NCBI GenBank assembly: GCA_029862935.1
Contig: JAOTWK010000188.1
Span: 1 to 6,882 of the forward strand
Direction: 5' to 3'
Source of the DNA: Gemmatimonadota bacterium
Lineage (GTDB): Bacteria; Gemmatimonadota; Gemmatimonadetes; Gemmatimonadales; GWC2-71-9
Length of the DNA stretch: 6,882 nt
The notes under the pieces were generated by a model. That model had not been told where the DNA came from and ran no database searches. It saw only the letters and a program-made list of their open reading frames with translations. Positions within the stretch are counted from its first letter, which is position 1. Each line of letters opens with the position of its first letter. The translations under genes and the position numbers were made by a program. This document shows positions 1 to 6,882 of this stretch, in pieces.

Positions 1-1191
1 GGCGCACGACATCTGACACTCGCGGGTGGGCTGCGCATGGACCCAGGGTCTCTGGCGGCGCTCGAGGCGTCAGACGACGTGTCCATATCCCTGGCCCTGC
101 CCGGTGATGCATTGACTGCCGAGGCCTCGGATTCGGCATTGATCAGCGAGTTGACGCTCCCTTTCATCGAAACGCGAATCGGAGAGGACGCAGACGTCGG
201 GATTGCTCACATCATGGTTGTGCATTCATCCGCTCCGCTCGATGCGCTGCGTCGATCCCTGGACGTTTGGTTTGTGACGGCCATCGGTCTCTCCGCGCTG
301 GTGGCGGCGCTGCTCGCCGTGCAGCTGTCTTCACGGATTAGTCGTCCGCTGGCGCGACTAGCGGAACAAACGGCCGAGGTGGAGCTCGACCGTCTCGACG
401 TATCCTTTGCGGGGACGCGGCACGACGAGATTGGGGCCCTGGCGAGAGTCCTCGATGGCATGACCCAACGCCTGCGCGCCAGCGTGCGAACGTTGCGCGA
501 GGTCGAGCGGCAGGCGGTATTGGGGGACCTCGCGCGGCAGGTGAACCACGATATCAAGAACGGTCTGATCCCGATCCGTAACGTGTTCCGCCATCTGAGC
601 GAGGTGGCCCGGGATGATCCCACACGGCTCCCCGACGTGTACCGCGAACGAGAGCGAACGGTCGAGACGGCGGTCGAGTACTTGGAGAAGCTCGCCGCGG
701 CCTATGCCGGACTCTCGCCCCGGTTCGATCTCGTCTCCTGCGACGTCAACGCGCTCATTGGAGGTGTTGTGCGCGGGACATCTCCATCGACCAACGCGAC
801 GGTGCAGCTCGAGCTCGATGCCGCCAATCCCCGGGCGCGAGCGGATTCGCTGGCGCTGCGACGGGTCGTAGAGAATCTCGTCTTTAACGCGCTCGACAGT
901 TTGCCACCCGAAGGTGGAAAGGTGGTCGTCGCGACCAGGATCCAGCAGAGCGAACACGGCCGACCCGTGGTGCAGCTCTCCGTGACGGATACGGGGAAGG
1001 GCATGACCGCCGATGAGTTGGATCGCGCTTTCGGTGATTTCTATACGACAAAATCCCGCGGGACCGGGCTCGGGCTTTCGATCGTGCGACGGCTGGTACG
1101 AGACTTGGGTGGCACGCTGCGGGTCGCGACTGAACCGGGGTCGGGCACACAGTTCTTTGTGGAACTGCCCCGAGCAGAGGAGACGGCATGA
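1..1191 (+). CDS. Membrane sensor histidine kinase with HAMP domain (5' end outside window)
   Basis: The frame is open from base 1, so the ATG at 37 is internal and the gene begins upstream. Residues are counted from that ATG. The first ~75 residues look like the end of a periplasmic sensor domain. A membrane segment lies at about 78-97 (WFVTAIGLSALVAALLAVQL). A HAMP linker follows (SRPLARL at its start, DEIGAL at its end). The dimerisation and phosphoacceptor helix has H171 in NHDIKNGLIPI. The ATPase domain shows the N box (N280, N284 in ENLVFNALD), the G1 box DTGKGM (D318), the F box FGDFYTTK and the G2 box GTGLGLS (342-348), so it should be an active kinase. The H-box has Gly where HEIKNPL-type kinases have Pro. 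It ends in an ATGA overlap with the response regulator gene, so the pair is almost certainly co-translated and cognate. The signal is not identifiable from the partial sensor. Confidence 0.95.
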   Translation, partial: GARHLTLAGGLRMDPGSLAALEASDDVSISLALPGDALTAEASDSALISELTLPFIETRIGEDADVGIAHIMVVHSSAPLDALRRSLDVWFVTAIGLSALVAALLAVQLSSRISRPLARLAEQTAEVELDRLDVSFAGTRHDEIGALARVLDGMTQRLRASVRTLREVERQAVLGDLARQVNHDIKNGLIPIRNVFRHLSEVARDDPTRLPDVYRERERTVETAVEYLEKLAAAYAGLSPRFDLVSCDVNALIGGVVRGTSPSTNATVQLELDAANPRARADSLALRRVVENLVFNALDSLPPEGGKVVVATRIQQSEHGRPVVQLSVTDTGKGMTADELDRAFGDFYTTKSRGTGLGLSIVRRLVRDLGGTLRVATEPGSGTQFFVELPRAEETA

Positions 1192-2543
1192 CGCTCATTC
1201 TCGTCGTCGACGATGTGGCACCGATGGCGGAGCAGTATGCCTACGACCTCGAACGGGTAGGTGGGTATCAGACCATGGTCGCTGGGGACGGGCGCGCAGC
1301 GCTTGGGGCACTGGTGACGGAGGCTGTCGACTGCATGCTGCTCGACCTCGAGATGCCGCGCATGGACGGGTTCGAGGTGCTGCAAGAGCTCGCGGCGCAG
1401 GAGATCCACGTGCCTGTCGTCGTCTATACCGGGACCGGGAACTACGAGCGCTGCGTGCAGGCGGTCAAGCTCGGTGCCGACGGGTTCATCGACAAGGCGG
1501 AGCCCGTAGAGCGGGTGGTCCAGGAAATCGAACTGGTGCTCGAGCGTCGGAGACTCGAGCGCGAGGTGGCCGCGCTCCGCCGGGACCTTGGCACCGACAG
1601 TCCGCTCATTGGGAACAGCCAGCCCATGCAGGATCTTCGTGCAGCCATCGCACGCGTCGCTCCGGTACCGAGCCCCGTGCTGATCATGGGCGAGAGTGGG
1701 TCGGGCAAAGAGCTCGTGGCTCGTGAGCTCCACCGATGGGGTCCCGGCGAGCGACAACCTTTTGTGGCGATCAACAGCGCCGCCCTCCCCGAGAGCCTGG
1801 TCGAGAGCGAACTGTTCGGCCACGAGCGTGGTGCGTTTACTGGGGCGTCCACGACCCGCAAGGGAGCGTTCGAGGCTGCTGCCGGCGGGACGCTGTTCCT
1901 CGACGAAGTCGGCGAGCTTCCCGGAGGCACGCAGGCAAAACTGCTTCGCGTGCTCGAACAACGAGAGATCACGCGAGTGGGCGGAACGCGCACGATTGCT
2001 GTCGATGCCCGCGTGATCGCGGCAACCAATCGCGATTTGGCGCAGGACGTGAAGGATGGTCGATTTCGCGAGGATCTCTTCTATAGGCTGAACGTGCACG
2101 TGGTTCGCGTTCCGCCGCTCCGCGATCGATTGTCGGATTTGCCGGCGCTGGTATCGCAGTTGCTCGAGGAGACCTGTCGCCGGTTCGGCGTACGCGTGAA
2201 GGCACTCCATCCGGACGCGCTCGCGCACCTCATGGCCTACGACTGGCGCCGCAACAACGTGCGCGAGCTGCGAAACGTCATCGAGCGGCTTGTGATTGCC
2301 GCGCCCGGCGATGTGATCGGGAGCGAGCATGTGCCCCCTGAGCTCACGTCCAATCAGGGCTCCGCGGGCCCCGCCTCCTCCACGTTCCAAGCGCAGAAGG
2401 CGGAGGCCGAGCGCCGCATTCTGCTCACGGCACTCGAGCGCAACGAGTGGCAGATCACCAAGACCGCTGAGGAGCTTGGGCTCGCGGATCACGCGAGTCT
2501 GCTCAAGATCATGCGGCGCCACGGTATCAAGAAGAGAGACTGA
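1188..2543 (+). CDS. NtrC-family sigma-54-dependent response regulator
   Basis: The 451-residue protein has the complete three-domain layout. The receiver domain (about 1-120) has acidic pocket D8-D9, phosphoacceptor D53 (LLDLEMPRMDG), T81 and K103. The AAA+ domain (about 139-375) has Walker A GESGSGKE (168-175), the sigma-54 contact loop GAFTGA (215-220), Walker B LFLDE (236-240) and the arginine-rich GRFREDLFYRL stretch (291-301). The C-terminal Fis-type helix-turn-helix lies at about 407-447. By family knowledge it is phosphorylated by its partner kinase, forms a ring on an upstream site and uses ATP to remodel sigma-54 RNA polymerase. The start follows GGAG at 1179-1182 with 5-base spacing and overlaps the kinase stop as ATGA. 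The sensor II stretch reads WRRNNVREL (353-361) where most relatives have WPGNVREL, a one-residue insertion. The palindromes just downstream are candidate binding sites. The regulon cannot be named from homology. Confidence 0.96.
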   Translation: MTLILVVDDVAPMAEQYAYDLERVGGYQTMVAGDGRAALGALVTEAVDCMLLDLEMPRMDGFEVLQELAAQEIHVPVVVYTGTGNYERCVQAVKLGADGFIDKAEPVERVVQEIELVLERRRLEREVAALRRDLGTDSPLIGNSQPMQDLRAAIARVAPVPSPVLIMGESGSGKELVARELHRWGPGERQPFVAINSAALPESLVESELFGHERGAFTGASTTRKGAFEAAAGGTLFLDEVGELPGGTQAKLLRVLEQREITRVGGTRTIAVDARVIAATNRDLAQDVKDGRFREDLFYRLNVHVVRVPPLRDRLSDLPALVSQLLEETCRRFGVRVKALHPDALAHLMAYDWRRNNVRELRNVIERLVIAAPGDVIGSEHVPPELTSNQGSAGPASSTFQAQKAEAERRILLTALERNEWQITKTAEELGLADHASLLKIMRRHGIKKRD

Positions 2544-2559
2544 TCCCGCCCAAGATGTT

Positions 2560-2577
2560 TGTGTCCAACCGGACACA
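2560..2577. promoter_or_regulatory. Palindrome 1, candidate activator binding site
   Basis: The arms GTGTCC (2561-2566) and GGACAC (2571-2576) are perfectly complementary around a 4-base centre, AACC. One more T-A pair on the outside gives seven pairs per arm. The site lies 17 bases after the response regulator stop codon. The same arms recur 34 bases downstream. Dyads with a short spacer are typical of sites bound by Fis-type helix-turn-helix dimers of NtrC-family activators, so binding by the adjacent regulator is a reasonable inference. No T-rich tail follows, which argues against a terminator. Confidence 0.7.
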
Positions 2578-2594
2578 GTAAGCCTTCCCATCAC

Positions 2595-2612
2595 GTGTCC
2601 GAATGGACACAG
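2595..2612. promoter_or_regulatory. Palindrome 2, candidate activator binding site
   Basis: The arms GTGTCC (2595-2600) and GGACAC (2605-2610) surround the centre GAAT, and AG follows exactly as in the first copy. The centre-to-centre distance to copy 1 is 34 bases, about 3.2 helical turns. The spacer bases differ between copies while both arms are identical, which is what selection for protein contacts would leave. Relative to the candidate start site near 2734 the copies sit at about -165 and -131, the usual range for sigma-54 upstream activator sites. Confidence 0.7.
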
Positions 2613-2707
2613 ATTCCCGCTCAACACCTCACTTTCTGCATGAGGTTCATTCTGTAAGGTATTGTCGCCATGCTATTTTGGTAACAAGTGACTCTGATGT
2701 AACCACG

Positions 2708-2723
2708 CGGCCCAGACCCTGCC
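2708..2723 (+). promoter_or_regulatory. Candidate sigma-54 (-24/-12) promoter of the TPR lipoprotein gene
   Basis: The 16 bases CGGCCCAGACCCTGCC contain GG (2709-2710) and GC (2721-2722) exactly 10 bases apart. Against TGGCAC-N5-TTGC they match 7 of 10 core positions; mismatches are the first T and the A of the -24 element and the first T of the -12 element. This would place transcription near 2734, about 53 bases before the lipoprotein ATG. GG-N10-GC is common by chance in GC-rich DNA, so the call rests mainly on context: an encoded sigma-54 activator and paired palindromes at the right distance upstream. Confidence 0.4.
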
Positions 2724-2753
2724 TTTCTCACTGACGGCAACGGCAATCGAACC

Positions 2754-2768
2754 GGCGCCGACGGCGCC
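2754..2768 (+). repeat. Short GC hairpin in the leader before the lipoprotein RBS
   Basis: GGCGCC (2754-2759) and GGCGCC (2763-2768) are separated by GAC. Because the hexamer is self-complementary, the RNA could form a 6-pair stem with a 3-base loop. It ends 5 bases before the AAAGGAGGG ribosome-binding stretch (2774-2782), so it could modulate translation, but a chance origin in GC-rich DNA is equally possible. Confidence 0.35.
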
Positions 2769-2786
2769 ACGGCAAAGGAGGGCAAC

Positions 2787-3824
2787 ATGTTGATCACCGC
2801 TCATGGCAGGGCCTGGCTCAGAGCACGACTGGGGGACGCGATGGTTGTGGGGCTGCTGTCGGTCGTCTATTTGCTCACCGGATGCGACCTGCCGGTGTCC
2901 GATCGGGCCTCCGAGCGTGACACTCCCGCCGTCGTCCGTGAACCGGCCTCGACTCCTATGCAGGCCATACCGGTGTCGCGTGATGTGCCCGCGGCGGAGC
3001 GTCCGGCGCCTGTGGTGACGGGACCGGTCACGTTCGATCAGGCAGACCAAGCGTTCCGCGAGAAGCGGTACGGCGACGCGACCGAGTTGTTCGGTATGTA
3101 CGCGGAGCAAAAGCCTGACAACGCGTGGGGTCACTACATGTTGGGGCTCTCGGCGTGGAAGGCGGGTGACCCCGCGGTCGCCGAGGTCGCGTTCAACGAG
3201 GCGCTCGGGCGCGATCCAGAGCATGTGAAGAGCGTCTTGGGCCTGAGCCGCGTGCTGATCGAGACGGGTCGTGCTGAGGAGGCGCTCGAGCAAATCGAGT
3301 CGGCTATGCTGATCGACTCGTCATCGCAGGTGTTCCGTCTCGAGGGTCGGGCGTTGGACGAACTAGGCCGACTCGATGAGGCGGTTGATGCCTACCTCGA
3401 GGCGATCGTGCGGGACGACACCGACGTGTGGGCGCTCAACAATTTGGGCTTCCTGTACATCCGCGACGGGCGGGAGTCGGCGGCCATCGGCCCGTTGGCG
3501 CGCGCGGTCGAGCTGGCGCCAGACATGGCGGTGTTCCAGAACAATCTCGGTGTTGCACTCGAGCGAACGGGATTCGCGGGAAGCGCGATCGAAGCGTTCC
3601 GGGCTGCGCTGAACGCCGACGAGGCTTATGAGAAGGCGCTCATCAATCTGGAGCGTGTCGAGGGTCGCGGCATCGACGTGGATGTGATGGCAGACCTCAC
3701 CCAGATCGCAGCGCAGTTCTTGGATGAGGTCGTGAGCTGGCGTCGCCTCGCCCAGGTGCCGATGAATGTGGAGTCCGTTCCGCCTGATTCCATTGAGCAA
3801 CCTGACCCTGAACCGATTCGATGA
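2787..3824 (+). CDS. TPR-repeat lipoprotein
   Basis: The 345-residue protein begins with an Arg-containing n-region, a hydrophobic stretch (about 18-30) and the lipobox LTGC with C33 as lipidation site. The residue after Cys is Asp, which in enterobacteria favours inner-membrane retention; whether that rule holds here is unknown. A Pro- and Ser-rich linker (about 35-80) precedes roughly six tetratricopeptide repeats (about 83-281), with typical pieces such as WGHYMLGLSAWKAGD, WALNNLGFLYIRDGRESAAI and FQNNLGVALERTGFAGSAI. A helical tail and a Pro/Glu-rich C-terminus end it. TPR domains act as protein-binding scaffolds; the partner is unknown. The start at 2787 has AAAGGAGGG (2774-2782) just upstream; the later ATG at 2841 would lose the positive n-region. 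It lies directly after the two-component pair and the paired palindromes, so it may be their target. A strong terminator follows at 3832. Confidence 0.9.
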   Translation: MLITAHGRAWLRARLGDAMVVGLLSVVYLLTGCDLPVSDRASERDTPAVVREPASTPMQAIPVSRDVPAAERPAPVVTGPVTFDQADQAFREKRYGDATELFGMYAEQKPDNAWGHYMLGLSAWKAGDPAVAEVAFNEALGRDPEHVKSVLGLSRVLIETGRAEEALEQIESAMLIDSSSQVFRLEGRALDELGRLDEAVDAYLEAIVRDDTDVWALNNLGFLYIRDGRESAAIGPLARAVELAPDMAVFQNNLGVALERTGFAGSAIEAFRAALNADEAYEKALINLERVEGRGIDVDVMADLTQIAAQFLDEVVSWRRLAQVPMNVESVPPDSIEQPDPEPIR

Positions 3825-3831
3825 GTGAGCC

Positions 3832-3860
3832 GGGGAGCGCGGAAGCCCGCGCTCCCCTTT
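3832..3860 (+). terminator. Rho-independent terminator of the lipoprotein gene
   Basis: An 11-pair perfect stem (GGGGAGCGCGG at 3832-3842, CCGCGCTCCCC at 3847-3857) has a 4-base loop AAGC and is followed by TTT and a moderately T-rich stretch. It begins 8 bases after the lipoprotein stop codon. Confidence 0.85.
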
Positions 3861-3904
3861 GCGCATTTCTTGTTCATTGGGTACTGGGGAGGATCCGCAA
3901 GAGA

Positions 3905-3931
3905 AAGGGCCCGCCGACTCGGCGGGCCCTT
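3905..3931 (-). terminator. Terminator of the LolA-like gene, probably bidirectional
   Basis: A 12-pair perfect stem (3905-3916 with 3920-3931) encloses a 3-base loop. Read on the - strand it ends in TTTCTC, 23 bases after the stop codon of the gene at 3955. On the + strand it is followed by CGTTCTTC, so it can also back up the terminator at 3832. Confidence 0.85.
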
Positions 3932-3954
3932 CGTTCTTCAGGTAGGCGGTCTGC

Positions 3955-4827
3955 TCAGTTGCTGGGCGGACCGCTATTCACTCTGAGGTCTTTGACGAGC
4001 ACCTCGACCTGCATGCCACCGCCACCCTGATCCTGCATCATCTTCTCCATTTGCTCCATCTGCTGCTTCAACATCTTCTCCATCATGGCTCGTTGCGCCT
4101 CAGGCATTTGGTCCATTTGACGCTTGGCCTCCTCGAGCTGCTCTCGCATCTCGGCCATGTCATCGTCGGTCATGCCCATGGCTTCTGCCATGCCTTCCAT
4201 GGTCACGCTGGTGCGGAACGGATACAGCATCCCGTTGATGTCGCGATAGTCGTCAAGGTCGACCGTACTGGTCACCGGGTGGGTCTCCCCTTCGTGCGTC
4301 ATCTGCCCGTCCACGACCATGCGGCGCATGACCAAGAGGTCCCGATCCACGAACATCGTCATCTTTTCGGCTCGGAAATCCTCTTCGTCCTGCTCTTCAG
4401 GGGAGGCGTTCATCATTCCATCGAAGTCGATGGACTCCGGATCGTCGACCACGAGCACGTGCACACTGTGTCCGTTGACGTTATCGCGGCCCTCGTACCT
4501 TACGTGCTGCGCGATCTCGTCGGCCCGGGCGTAGAACGTGTCCCAACTTTCTTCGGGTGTCTCTTGGTCAATCATCATGCCGCCCACAATGCTCTTGCTC
4601 AAGCGGAAGACGGGGCGACCGTTGACCATTTCCTTGACGAAGTACTGTGTTGTTTCGACGCCAACAGCATCCTGCACCAACGTGTAGTTGTCGACGCCGG
4701 CAATTCTTTGCTCGTAGCTCTTCATCATTCGATTCAGAATGTCGGACGAGGACTGAGCGAGGACACCGGTCGTGCCGACTGACGAGAGCAGCAGCGCTCC
4801 AACGAGCGCACGGGCAGCTGAACGCAT
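3955..4827 (-). CDS. Exported LolA/LolB-fold-like protein with Met-rich insertion
   Basis: The start at 4827 is chosen because GGGAGGTG lies 5 bases or fewer upstream and the N-terminus MRSAARALVGALLLSSVGTT continues to an Ala-Gln cleavage site after about A24; the upstream extension to 4989 has neither. The mature ~266 residues alternate short beta-type stretches (YTLVQDAV, RPVFRLSKS, HVLVVDD, MTMFVDRDLLVMRRMVVDG, GMLYPFRTSVTM, MQVEVLVKDLRVN), which resembles the open-barrel outer-membrane lipoprotein-sorting fold. This is a fold-level impression, not a confident family match. Between the last two strands sits a ~60-residue Met/Gln/Glu-rich, probably coiled-coil segment (about 211-270) ending in four glycines. 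It is expected to be periplasmic. It lies 80 bases downstream of the nuclease-superfamily gene, same strand, with a possible promoter of its own. Specific function unknown. Confidence 0.88.
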   Translation of the reverse strand: MRSAARALVGALLLSSVGTTGVLAQSSSDILNRMMKSYEQRIAGVDNYTLVQDAVGVETTQYFVKEMVNGRPVFRLSKSIVGGMMIDQETPEESWDTFYARADEIAQHVRYEGRDNVNGHSVHVLVVDDPESIDFDGMMNASPEEQDEEDFRAEKMTMFVDRDLLVMRRMVVDGQMTHEGETHPVTSTVDLDDYRDINGMLYPFRTSVTMEGMAEAMGMTDDDMAEMREQLEEAKRQMDQMPEAQRAMMEKMLKQQMEQMEKMMQDQGGGGMQVEVLVKDLRVNSGPPSN

Positions 4828-4862
4828 TGACACCTCCCAAAAGAACGCGGTCCGATGAAGGT

Positions 4863-4872
4863 CGAATGATAC
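4863..4872 (-). promoter_or_regulatory. Possible -10 element upstream of the LolA-like gene
   Basis: On the - strand this reads GTATCATTCG; TATCAT matches TATAAT at 5 of 6 positions and lies 38 bases before the ATG at 4827. The hexamer 17 bases upstream (TAGCCC) is a poor -35 match (3 of 6). The same 10 bases occur upstream of the next gene on this strand (6148-6157). Confidence 0.4.
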
Positions 4873-4907
4873 GCTGGGAGCCTCGATCGGGCTAGCACCC
4901 GCGAGAT

Positions 4908-6086
4908 TCACCTCCTGCGCAGTTGAGCAACGACGGGCCGGTGGTCGGAGCCGACATCGTCGGCCACCCACGACCGCACGATCTTCCACGTGCTATCGGC
5001 GAGCACGTGGTCGATCCGCGCCCGAATCCATCCATTCATGCGGGTGGCGCCGAAGCCGCGGCCCATAATCGAGAACGCGTTCTGCCAGTCCGACCAGGCA
5101 GCACGATACAAGCGACTCTCCGGAGGCGTGTTGAAGTCCCCCGCCACGATCTGGCGTGCCGGAAAGCGGTCTGCCCAGCGGCGAGCGCGGCGAAGCTCGA
5201 TTTCGCGCAGCTGAGATTTCGTCGCCAACACCGGAATTCCTTCATCAAGATTCCCGGCGCGGATCCGTTCCAGGCCCGCGCGTGGAGTTTCGAGGTGCAC
5301 GTTGGTGAGAAAGACGAGGCCTTCTTCGACCTCGAGCAGGTAGGTCATCACCAATCCGGCCCCGCCGGCAAACTCGAGGGCTTCCCGGTCCATCGTCCGC
5401 ACCTCGACAATCGGGAAGCGGCTGACAACGCACAGTCCCTCGCTGCTATGCGTATGCCAGTCGAGGAGTCGATCAATCGCGTCACGCAACAGACCGGAGC
5501 ATTCCTGAAACGCTGCCATGTCAGCGTCCCACTCGAGCATGAGATCCGTGAGGGAGCTGGTGATCGTGCCCCCGCCTTTCGCGTTGAACGTTGCCACTCG
5601 TATGTCGCGGTCCGAGTCGGGCCAAACGAAGAAACGCGTCCATCCCGTCTGGAAGCCCATCACTGGTCCCAGCACGACGGCACCGGCCACCAGGATCGGC
5701 ACGAGCAGTGGGCGATCGTGCAGAATCGCGGCCGGCACGAGTACCACCAGCGGCAGGAGCAGCACCCATCGGGGTCCGAACAAGAGCACCGTGGCAAGCC
5801 ACCAGCGGTCGCCGAGCCACCACAGGGCGGCTGCCGACACCAGGGCAAGCGACAGATACGCGACGGCTCCCCAAAAGACGAGCCGGTGGGCACGTGACAG
5901 TGTAGCGGGTACGCGGAGACCAGCCGCCCAACGAAGGATGCGCCACACTCGCCAGGCATCGACTGGCGCCCCGCACGTTGAGCACCGTGCGTTGGACCAG
6001 AAGCGGCCCTTCGCGAGTCGAACACGGTGCCTGCCGCTCTTGCACCGCACGATGATGTCACGGGGATGCTGGTTCATCGTCATCAT
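4908..6086 (-). CDS. Membrane-anchored endonuclease/exonuclease/phosphatase-superfamily protein
   Basis: The ~392-residue protein has three parts. Residues about 11-45 hold C15, H20, C35 and C38 (CSTCG), resembling a zinc ribbon whose first knuckle has lost its second Cys. Residues about 69-146 are hydrophobic and contain three or four membrane segments. Residues about 161-390 are a complete EEP (DNase I / exonuclease III-like) domain: N168 in ATFNAKGG, E195 in FQEC, H264 in NVHLETP, D317 and N319 in GDFNTPP, D359 in RIDHVL, and D381-H382 in GSDHRPV. These are the metal-binding and catalytic residues of the superfamily, so a Mg-dependent phosphodiesterase or nuclease activity is likely; the substrate is not predictable. 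The start is set at the ATG at 6086 (or 6083), after AGGGG at 6091-6095. A GTG at 6107 has GAGG too close to serve well, and the ATG at 6077 is too far from AGGGG. The gene is divergent from the beta-lactamase-family gene. Confidence 0.92.
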   Translation of the reverse strand: MMTMNQHPRDIIVRCKSGRHRVRLAKGRFWSNARCSTCGAPVDAWRVWRILRWAAGLRVPATLSRAHRLVFWGAVAYLSLALVSAAALWWLGDRWWLATVLLFGPRWVLLLPLVVLVPAAILHDRPLLVPILVAGAVVLGPVMGFQTGWTRFFVWPDSDRDIRVATFNAKGGGTITSSLTDLMLEWDADMAAFQECSGLLRDAIDRLLDWHTHSSEGLCVVSRFPIVEVRTMDREALEFAGGAGLVMTYLLEVEEGLVFLTNVHLETPRAGLERIRAGNLDEGIPVLATKSQLREIELRRARRWADRFPARQIVAGDFNTPPESRLYRAAWSDWQNAFSIMGRGFGATRMNGWIRARIDHVLADSTWKIVRSWVADDVGSDHRPVVAQLRRR

Positions 6087-6147
6087 CTCGCCCCTGAGTA
6101 CTGCCACGTCCTCACTGCGACGGCTGACCTAGGTACCTTGCCAGCAC

Positions 6148-6157
6148 CGAATGATAC
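6148..6157 (-). promoter_or_regulatory. Possible -10 element upstream of the EEP gene
   Basis: GTATCATTCG on the - strand is identical to the element at 4863-4872. It lies about 61 bases before the ATG at 6086, within the divergent intergenic region. I found no good -35 hexamer at 16-18 bases, so the promoter call rests on the repeated element and position. Confidence 0.35.
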
Positions 6158-6193
6158 CCCTGGCGCGCACGGGGCGGACCTCCGACAATTGGA

Positions 6194-6210
6194 GGCGTGC
6201 GGGCCACGCC
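6194..6210. repeat. Inverted repeat in the divergent intergenic region
   Basis: GGCGTG (6194-6199) and CACGCC (6205-6210) are perfectly complementary around CGGGC. The repeat lies 36 bases before the beta-lactamase-family ATG and could be an operator or leader hairpin. No second copy supports it. Confidence 0.3.
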
Positions 6211-6246
6211 CGCTCGACTCCCTCACCTCGATTCGGAGCCTACACG

Positions 6247-6882
6247 ATGAAACGCTTGATCGTTCCGTTTCTCGCCGCCACGGTCTCGGGGAATGCGTTG
6301 GCCCAGGAACCATTGGTGCGCGATCACCCACGGGTGCGCGAGGCCCTCCACCTGCTCGAGACCTGGGTCGACGCACAGCGCGCCTATGAGGAAATTCCCG
6401 GCATCTCGATGGCCGTGGTCCACGATCAAGAGCTTGTGTGGAGTGGAGGCTTTGGGCTTGCCGTTCCCGCCCGCAATGCCCCGGCCACTCCGCAGACGAT
6501 GTATTCCATCTGCTCTATCTCGAAGCTTTTCACCGCCATCGGTGTGATGCAGCTTCGTGACCGTGGAAAGCTGCGGCTCGACGATCCGGTCACAAGCCAT
6601 CTCCCATGGTTTCAAATCGGGGATGCGTATCCTGACGCGACTCCGGCCACCATCGAGGGGATCCTGACGCACTCATCGGGCCTCCCGCGCGAATCGGACT
6701 ACCCCTACTGGAGTCCACCGGACTTTCCGTTTCCGACGCGTGAACAGATTCGACAACGGGTGGGGGCCCAACAAGAGCTGTATCCGGGCGCCACGTTCTA
6801 CCAGTACTCGAATCTCGGACTCGCGGCGGCGGGAGAAATCGTGGCTGCAGCGTCGGGAGAAGACTACGATGAGTACATCCGG
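6247..6882 (+). CDS. Secreted serine beta-lactamase-family protein (3' end outside window)
   Basis: The frame is open from the ATG at 6247 to the last base (212 codons). It translates to a signal peptide (MKRLIVPFLAATVSGNALA, cut before Q20) and the N-terminal part of a PF00144-type domain. The nucleophile motif S-x-x-K is SISK (S90, K93) in YSICSISKLFTA. The second motif Y-x-N is YSN (187-189) in YQYSNLGLAAAGEI. The family signature ILTHSSGLP is at 139-147. This superfamily includes class C beta-lactamases, DD-peptidases and esterases; true antibiotic resistance cannot be assumed. The third (KTG/HxG-like) motif would lie beyond the window. GGAG at 6235-6238 gives an 8-base spacing to the ATG. 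The protein is expected in the periplasm or outside the cell. It is divergent from the EEP gene, with a 160-base gap between the starts. Confidence 0.93.
   Translation, partial: MKRLIVPFLAATVSGNALAQEPLVRDHPRVREALHLLETWVDAQRAYEEIPGISMAVVHDQELVWSGGFGLAVPARNAPATPQTMYSICSISKLFTAIGVMQLRDRGKLRLDDPVTSHLPWFQIGDAYPDATPATIEGILTHSSGLPRESDYPYWSPPDFPFPTREQIRQRVGAQQELYPGATFYQYSNLGLAAAGEIVAAASGEDYDEYIR

Follow-up and report, generated by a model that had tools for sequence, protein, structure and literature searches.

What do two identical palindromes do between the gene for an NtrC-type response regulator and the gene for a lipoprotein, and is the regulator encoded beside them the protein that recognises them? 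The question is raised by a stretch of DNA from a Gemmatimonadota bacterium (assembly GCA_029862935.1, contig JAOTWK010000188.1, positions 1 to 6,882), which is called the window here over its whole length of 6,882 nucleotides. The preliminary description of this DNA had proposed that the palindromes (dyads) may be the recognition sequence of the regulator. Their conservation, their stepped spacing to a promoter and their co-occurrence with the regulator support this proposal. The dyads are very probably a tandem upstream activating sequence (enhancer) for the adjacent regulator, which would bring about sigma-54 transcription of the gene for a TPR lipoprotein. The features concerned are:

1188-2543, plus strand: NtrC-type response regulator with a receiver domain, a Sigma54_activat AAA+ domain and a Fis-type helix-turn-helix (HTH) domain (Pfam)
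2561-2576, no strand: dyad 1, GTGTCCAACCGGACAC, an exact match to GTGTCC-N4-GGACAC, predicted outer upstream activating site
2595-2610, no strand: dyad 2, GTGTCCGAATGGACAC, an exact match to GTGTCC-N4-GGACAC, predicted inner upstream activating site
2708-2723, plus strand: predicted sigma-54 -24/-12 promoter, CGGCCCAGACCCTGCC, with GG at 2709-2710 and GC at 2721-2722 in GG-N10-GC spacing
2787-3824, plus strand: TPR-repeat lipoprotein of 345 residues (Pfam TPR families) with a lipobox-like LLTGC containing Cys33, predicted target gene

The letters of the window bore out the description of two perfect dyads with the same arms just past the NtrC-type regulator gene. They lie 34 bp apart from start to start, each is trailed by AG, and they begin 18 and 52 bases after the regulator stop. 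The chance figure of about 1 in 70,000 given for them is arithmetically correct for uniform bases (4^12/240). When up to three mismatches were allowed, four dyad matches were found in the window, the two perfect ones and two with three mismatches, while 4.73 were expected by chance. Matches with three mismatches are thus at chance level and only the perfect dyads are informative. Downstream, the 7/10 match to the -24/-12 promoter was found again at 2708-2723 with the GG-N10-GC spacing. The comparison was made with TGGCAC-N5-TTGC, the -24/-12 consensus, and CGGCCCAGACCCTGCC starts 98 bases past the inner 14-base core of dyad 2. The transcript of the lipoprotein gene is predicted to start near 2734. 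No sigma-70-like promoter was found in 2500-2850 of the window.

From this arrangement we infer a mechanism that takes this regulator as the binder and extends to its phosphorylation, looping, RpoN dependence, signal and output. The response regulator, most probably in the form of a phosphorylated oligomer, would bind both dyads via its Fis-type HTH domain on roughly one face of the helix. It would then loop over the next 100 bp, possibly with a bend protein, to the sigma-54 RNA polymerase at 2708-2723, and this contact would turn on the gene at 2787 for the TPR lipoprotein. The sensor would be the linked kinase, perhaps with an SBP_bac_5-like protein encoded upstream in many relatives.

Conservation and promoter spacing at related loci

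Absence of the dyads from orthologous loci had been named beforehand as an observation that would speak against the proposal; the comparison did not bear it out. Related loci were collected by a contig scan using two patterns, NNVRELRN and DHASLLKI, from an alignment of 26 regulators (the window and 25 homologues with 66-94% identity), and the best 80 of 167 confirmed relatives were used. Together with 12 loci of a divergent clade, whose regulators were found by whole-protein search, this gave 92 loci, and in 80 of them a TPR gene could be recognised. A pair with at least 16 of 20 arm matches was found upstream of this gene in 67 of the 80 (61/68 and, in the divergent clade, 6/12) and in 8 of 3200 shuffles; at a score of at least 17 the figures are 58/80 and 0/3200. 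A further six loci have a lone site of 9 or 10 matches with a -24/-12 element 98-102 bp further on.

The search was also anchored on the regulator. In a range of -45 to +230 around its stop, 54 of the 80 scanned loci, as well as the window, have a pair with at least 16 of 20 arm matches. The spacing within these 55 pairs, where 24, 25 and 33-35 were scanned, is 34 in 39, 33 in 12, 25 in two, and 24 and 35 in one each. A comparison with controls used the window and the 76 loci with at least 120 bases past the stop, the four shorter loci being dropped. Of these 77 regions, 50 have a pair of at least 17 within -45 to +280 of the stop; none was found in 3080 shuffles or in 955 regions taken from elsewhere in these loci. 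Scanning all spacings from 15 to 60 made 33 (11 regions) and 34 (36 regions) stand out, every other spacing being found in 0-2 regions. The G and C flanking the scored arms did not enter the score; over 116 sites their conservation is 1.00 and 0.99, which independently confirms the full 12-base dyad.

The pair goes with the TPR gene. A TPR orthologue follows the pair in 52 of the 54 paired loci; the two exceptions, L004 and L074, are on contigs that stop about 390 bases past the regulator. Among 25 loci examined, eight have the TPR gene farther off and the pair beside the TPR gene, 0.25-3.3 kb past the regulator stop (L006, L036, L043, L052, L064, L067, L073 and L078); the pair is likewise beside the TPR gene in genomes G044 and G218. 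In the divergent clade (L164-L175), where the regulators are 54-58% identical, a GTGTCC-N4-GGACAC or GTGTCC-N4-GTACAC site lies past the regulator in 8 of 12 loci, the second site is usually weak and a strong TGGCCC-N5-TTGCC-like promoter follows the dyad. This looks like an apparent shift from paired to single dyads.

The region 55-104 bases past dyad 2 was scanned in all 55 pairs for a promoter element in which GG and GC were required. A GG-N10-GC element with at least six matches was present in 53 (the exceptions are L012 and L071) and in 15.5% of 5500 shuffles; with at least seven matches it was present in 51 and in 7.1% of the shuffles. The consensus from the 53 loci is TGGCCC-N5-TTGCC, of which only the positions other than the preset GG and GC are informative. 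The distances from dyad 2 to the promoter fall into classes of 62-64 (15 loci), 73-76 (2), 81-89 (16) and 95-99 (20). Their circular concentration, expressed as vector length, is 0.81 at a period of 11.5 bp, and the maximum in 100 shuffled sets, each with fewer points, is 0.73. This is suggestive of enhancer-promoter distances stepped by about one helical turn, for related loci and a period picked after looking.

A site for a bend protein was also sought in the spacer, and one candidate was read by eye:

2655-2667, plus strand: tentative weak IHF-like element, TAAGGTATTGTCG, 6/9 to the consensus

This element lies at offset 45 from dyad 2, and several loci with the same promoter distance have one at 44-45. 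A scripted scan placed the best match in the window elsewhere, at CATGAGGTTCATT (7/9). Over the 53 loci, elements of at least 8/9 were found in the spacer in eight on the forward strand (2.3% of shuffles) and in six on the reverse (2.4%), and in several loci IHF-like elements have offsets near 22, 33 or 44. An IHF site between enhancer and promoter would be an enriched but weak feature.

Distribution among genomes and further targets

A search of relatives for the dyads upstream of -24/-12 promoters had been proposed; it found them, at stepped distances and co-occurring with the regulator. In 13 genomes, the 34-bp pair with up to three mismatches had matches in 10, at 0-3 places each, and the reversed pattern used as control matched at one place. 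The 33-bp pair with up to two mismatches was found in 6 of 26 genomes, and its control in none. A larger set of 298 genomes covers one phylum and was drawn from a larger group. Here the 34-bp pair with up to two mismatches was found in 31 genomes and the reversed pattern in 2. The regulator, at a threshold of E 1e-130 or better, is present in 61 of the 298; it accompanies the pair in 26 of 31 genomes and is found in 35 of the 267 without the pair (Fisher p = 6e-16, uncorrected for relatedness). Five pair-bearing genomes gave no regulator match: in G286 the regulator is partial, in G228 and G245 the pair lies with a TPR gene near a contig end, and the pairs in G035 and G115 look like chance.

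The pair occupies 34 places in the 298 genomes and precedes a TPR orthologue at 28 of them, one being L036. The six places without a TPR orthologue are L085, L092, L096, L110, L123 and G035. The pairs of L085, L093, L094 and L123, with neither a TPR gene nor a promoter at 97-98, look like chance. A search for one exact dyad followed by TGG-N9-TGC gave 31 places in 29 of 76 genomes, and 4 for the reversed control. By coordinates, 22 of these places are at a regulator or TPR locus and one is an extra target in G007. The remaining eight are elsewhere (two in G214 and one each in G223, G044, G017, G085, G206 and G022), and since the control gave 4, several of them may be chance.

The suggestion that the dyads define a regulon stood in part. 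A large regulon is unsupported, the 34-bp pair being at 0-3 places per genome in the 13 genomes, and in most genomes searched the pair marks the promoter of the TPR lipoprotein alone. Further targets, with a promoter at the same distance, are seen in G007, G008 and perhaps G232. G007 has three extra pairs and G008 two, each with a -24/-12 element of 7-8 matches 97-98 bp past dyad 2. Two of the apparent extra targets are common to both genomes. One combines HEAT repeats with an ICMT-like membrane part (70% identical) and the other is an exported protein (65% identical), for which one of the two copies matches LolA_like below threshold. A DUF5916/CBM9 protein is an extra candidate in G007, a weaker assignment because its open reading frame (ORF) starts about 560 bases past the promoter. 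In G232 a pair with a -24/-12 element at 97 bp precedes a small TPR lipoprotein-like ORF (L178:5356-5802, minus strand) on a contig other than that of the regulator.

The genes for the HEAT-repeat proteins, with their ICMT/DUF1295-like part, are at L105:10769-12490 and L107:4130-5863 (minus strand). In G186 and G302, where no regulator match was obtained, the homologues lack dyads, as predicted, and the homologue in G290 has 85 bases upstream on its contig, too short to judge. Two genomes that do carry the regulator gave no dyads either, at a second HEAT copy in G008 and at a weaker homologue in G002.

Regulator, kinase and neighbouring genes

Two further features of the window concern the signalling proteins:

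1-1191, plus strand: sensor histidine kinase, C-terminal 396 residues, gene start outside the window (Pfam HATPase_c 4.8e-26, HAMP 1.2e-09)
2484-2519, plus strand: codons of the putative recognition helix ADHASLLKIMRR, residues 433-444 of the regulator, from the regulator comparison

The start codon of the regulator overlaps the stop of the kinase gene. All three regulator domains were recognised: the receiver domain (Response_reg 7.3e-23) with D53 invariant in the 26 aligned sequences, the AAA+ domain (Sigma54_activat 2.1e-68) with GAFTGA likewise invariant, and the Fis-type HTH domain (HTH_8 1.7e-05, 24.9 bits for a cut-off of 22). The closest regulators are 87-94% identical and those of Gemmatimonadales (P0006, L001) 76-77%. 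In 91 of the 92 regulators, the divergent clade (DHSSLLKIMNR) included, 6 of the 12 positions of the recognition helix are invariant and one further position is conserved in 90/91. For the 80 scanned loci this conservation is partly built in, as DHASLLKI was one of the two search patterns.

Same-strand ORF families over the 80 scanned loci gave the regulator in 79, the kinase in 74, the TPR protein in 64 and an ORF directly upstream of the kinase in 63. This last ORF matched SBP_bac_5 in 19 of the 20 members scanned out of 63, and its product may be a co-sensor. The SBP_bac_5-like gene lies outside the window, for example at L001:2746-4260, with equivalents in 63 of the 80 loci. The rpoN gene was found in all 13 related genomes scanned for it. 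The ORF that intervenes in L006 matched no family.

Downstream of the TPR gene the window encodes, at 3955-4842 on the minus strand, a protein that looks exported; NCBIfam gave no match for it and Pfam only one below threshold. Between these convergent genes lie two inverted repeats, both strong and GC-rich, at 3832-3857 and 3907-3929. They are perhaps terminators; the terminator scan flagged none.

Alternative explanations and comparison with known systems

Several observations weigh against the proposal that the regulator acts through the dyads on the TPR gene. The -24 element of the window is weak, with C in place of T at its first position. Seven of the 80 TPR loci (L017, L057, L069, L077, L079, L169 and L173) lack a pair and also lack any lone site of at least 9/10. 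Two of these, L069 and L077, have their TPR gene 1.1-1.6 kb away from the regulator, and no pair turned up there. Only 26 of the 61 regulator-positive genomes have the 34-bp pair with up to two mismatches; other spacings and weaker sites account for some of the remainder. The loci and genomes are related, so that the counts and p-values overstate independence. Finally, linkage and co-occurrence are compatible with another linked binder, binding and transcription being predictions from sequence.

This last point leads to the alternative that the dyads bind a different transcription factor, an activator or a repressor, which also controls the lipoprotein gene, the response regulator itself working at other sites. 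Dyads of this length are generic, binding by the regulator is a prediction, and the regulator and TPR gene are linked to each other so that co-occurrence does not single out the regulator. However, the tandem layout and the stepped spacing to a sigma-54 promoter suit an enhancer-binding protein, the one that is linked and conserved is the regulator, with a largely invariant recognition helix, and the extra targets in G007 and G008 also have a -24/-12 element at 97-98 bp. A different factor is considered unlikely. Another explanation has the dyads act in RNA, as hairpins or as a terminator closing the regulator transcript: they begin 18 and 52 bases beyond the stop codon, and each could fold into a 6-bp hairpin. 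This would leave the fixed 33-34 bp spacing and the promoter stepping unexplained; moreover, no GC-rich hairpin with a T run was found in 2500-2850, and in eight loci the sites are beside the TPR gene, away from the regulator. A role in RNA was thus rejected as very improbable. The least probable explanation is chance recurrence of a short, non-functional palindrome. It could appeal to the chance-level number of three-mismatch dyads in the window but is refuted by conservation, given a score of 17 in 50/77 and 58/80 regions and in 0/3080 and 0/3200 shuffles.

With the dyads read as the enhancer of the adjacent regulator, a wider proposal, made tentatively and with somewhat less than even confidence, is an envelope-signalling module of SBP5-like protein, kinase, sigma-54 regulator and dyad-pair enhancer. 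Its main output would be one TPR lipoprotein, and further envelope proteins would be recruited by lineage: the HEAT-repeat membrane and LolA-like exported proteins, and perhaps the DUF5916/CBM9 protein and the small TPR lipoprotein. Going by depositors' titles, the module is found in records of Gemmatimonadota, Krumholzibacteriota, Latescibacterota, Eisenbacteria, Acidobacteria and Rhodothermia. A DNA site and a main target are proposed for a sigma-54 response regulator that recurs in phyla with little-studied regulators, and the prediction is precise as to site, spacing, promoter and transcript start. The dyad-pair enhancer gives a handle on a conserved TPR lipoprotein, and spacing classes about one helical turn apart offer a natural experiment in how tightly the phasing of enhancer and promoter is kept.

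A literature search, in which subscription journals and figures were not covered, found no paper naming the system or the motif, and a literal search for the motif gave 0 results. NtrC, NtrX, AtoC and ZraR have the same domain architecture, and the regulator scores strongly with their models and with solved NtrC-family structures. Its NCBIfam scores for NtrC, NtrX and AtoC are nevertheless below the cut-offs (369.6 vs 558.6, 353.6 vs 600 and 373.9 vs 714 bits), as they are in each of the best 25 of 100 matched families.

The layout of the sites has parallels in two regulon studies. For sigma-54 regulons of Clostridiales, inverted-repeat sites that end in TGT...ACA are described for 15 of 39 groups, more than one site for 32 groups and control of a single operon for 170 of 263 regulators; the phyla and targets differ from ours, and most sites there are 100-250 bp upstream of the promoter (PMC6615313). 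In Desulfovibrio vulgaris, sites determined by DAP-chip are mostly palindromic with inverted repeats of 4-6 bp separated by 3-8 bp; the strings TGTCC and GGACA are not in the main text of that study (PMC3333781). By these studies, palindromic and often multiple sites, as well as one-operon regulons, are usual.

The closest layout is that of PrsK/PrsR/PrsT in XrtA/PEP-CTERM Proteobacteria, with a kinase, an NtrC-type regulator and a TPR lipoprotein. In Haft et al. (2006; PMC1569441), these genes are adjacent in 4 of 13 cases, and an upstream motif, sometimes repeated and followed by a -24/-12 element after about 63 nt (32-92), precedes 99 of 167 proteobacterial PEP-CTERM genes. That motif is 17 nt long and ends in TTTACA, unlike GTGTCC-N4-GGACAC, as compared by its description in the text rather than by its logo. 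Membership of the PEP-CTERM system was rejected, as all three window proteins are far below the cut-offs of TIGR02915, TIGR02916 and TIGR02917 (344.1 vs 502.6, 84.5 vs 300 and 72.1 vs 312.2 bits) and the motif description differs; the window kinase is partial, and a full-length relative scores 81.3 bits. In a 2023 report on Aquincola, one PEP-CTERM gene was RpoN-dependent and transcription of prsT was seemingly unaffected by loss of rpoN1 (PMC9850573), whereas here the TPR gene itself is the predicted sigma-54 target. Prs sites precede many PEP-CTERM genes, whereas a pair of the window type mostly precedes one TPR lipoprotein gene. If the proposal is true, the module would be a lipoprotein-centred counterpart of PrsKRT outside PEP-CTERM systems.
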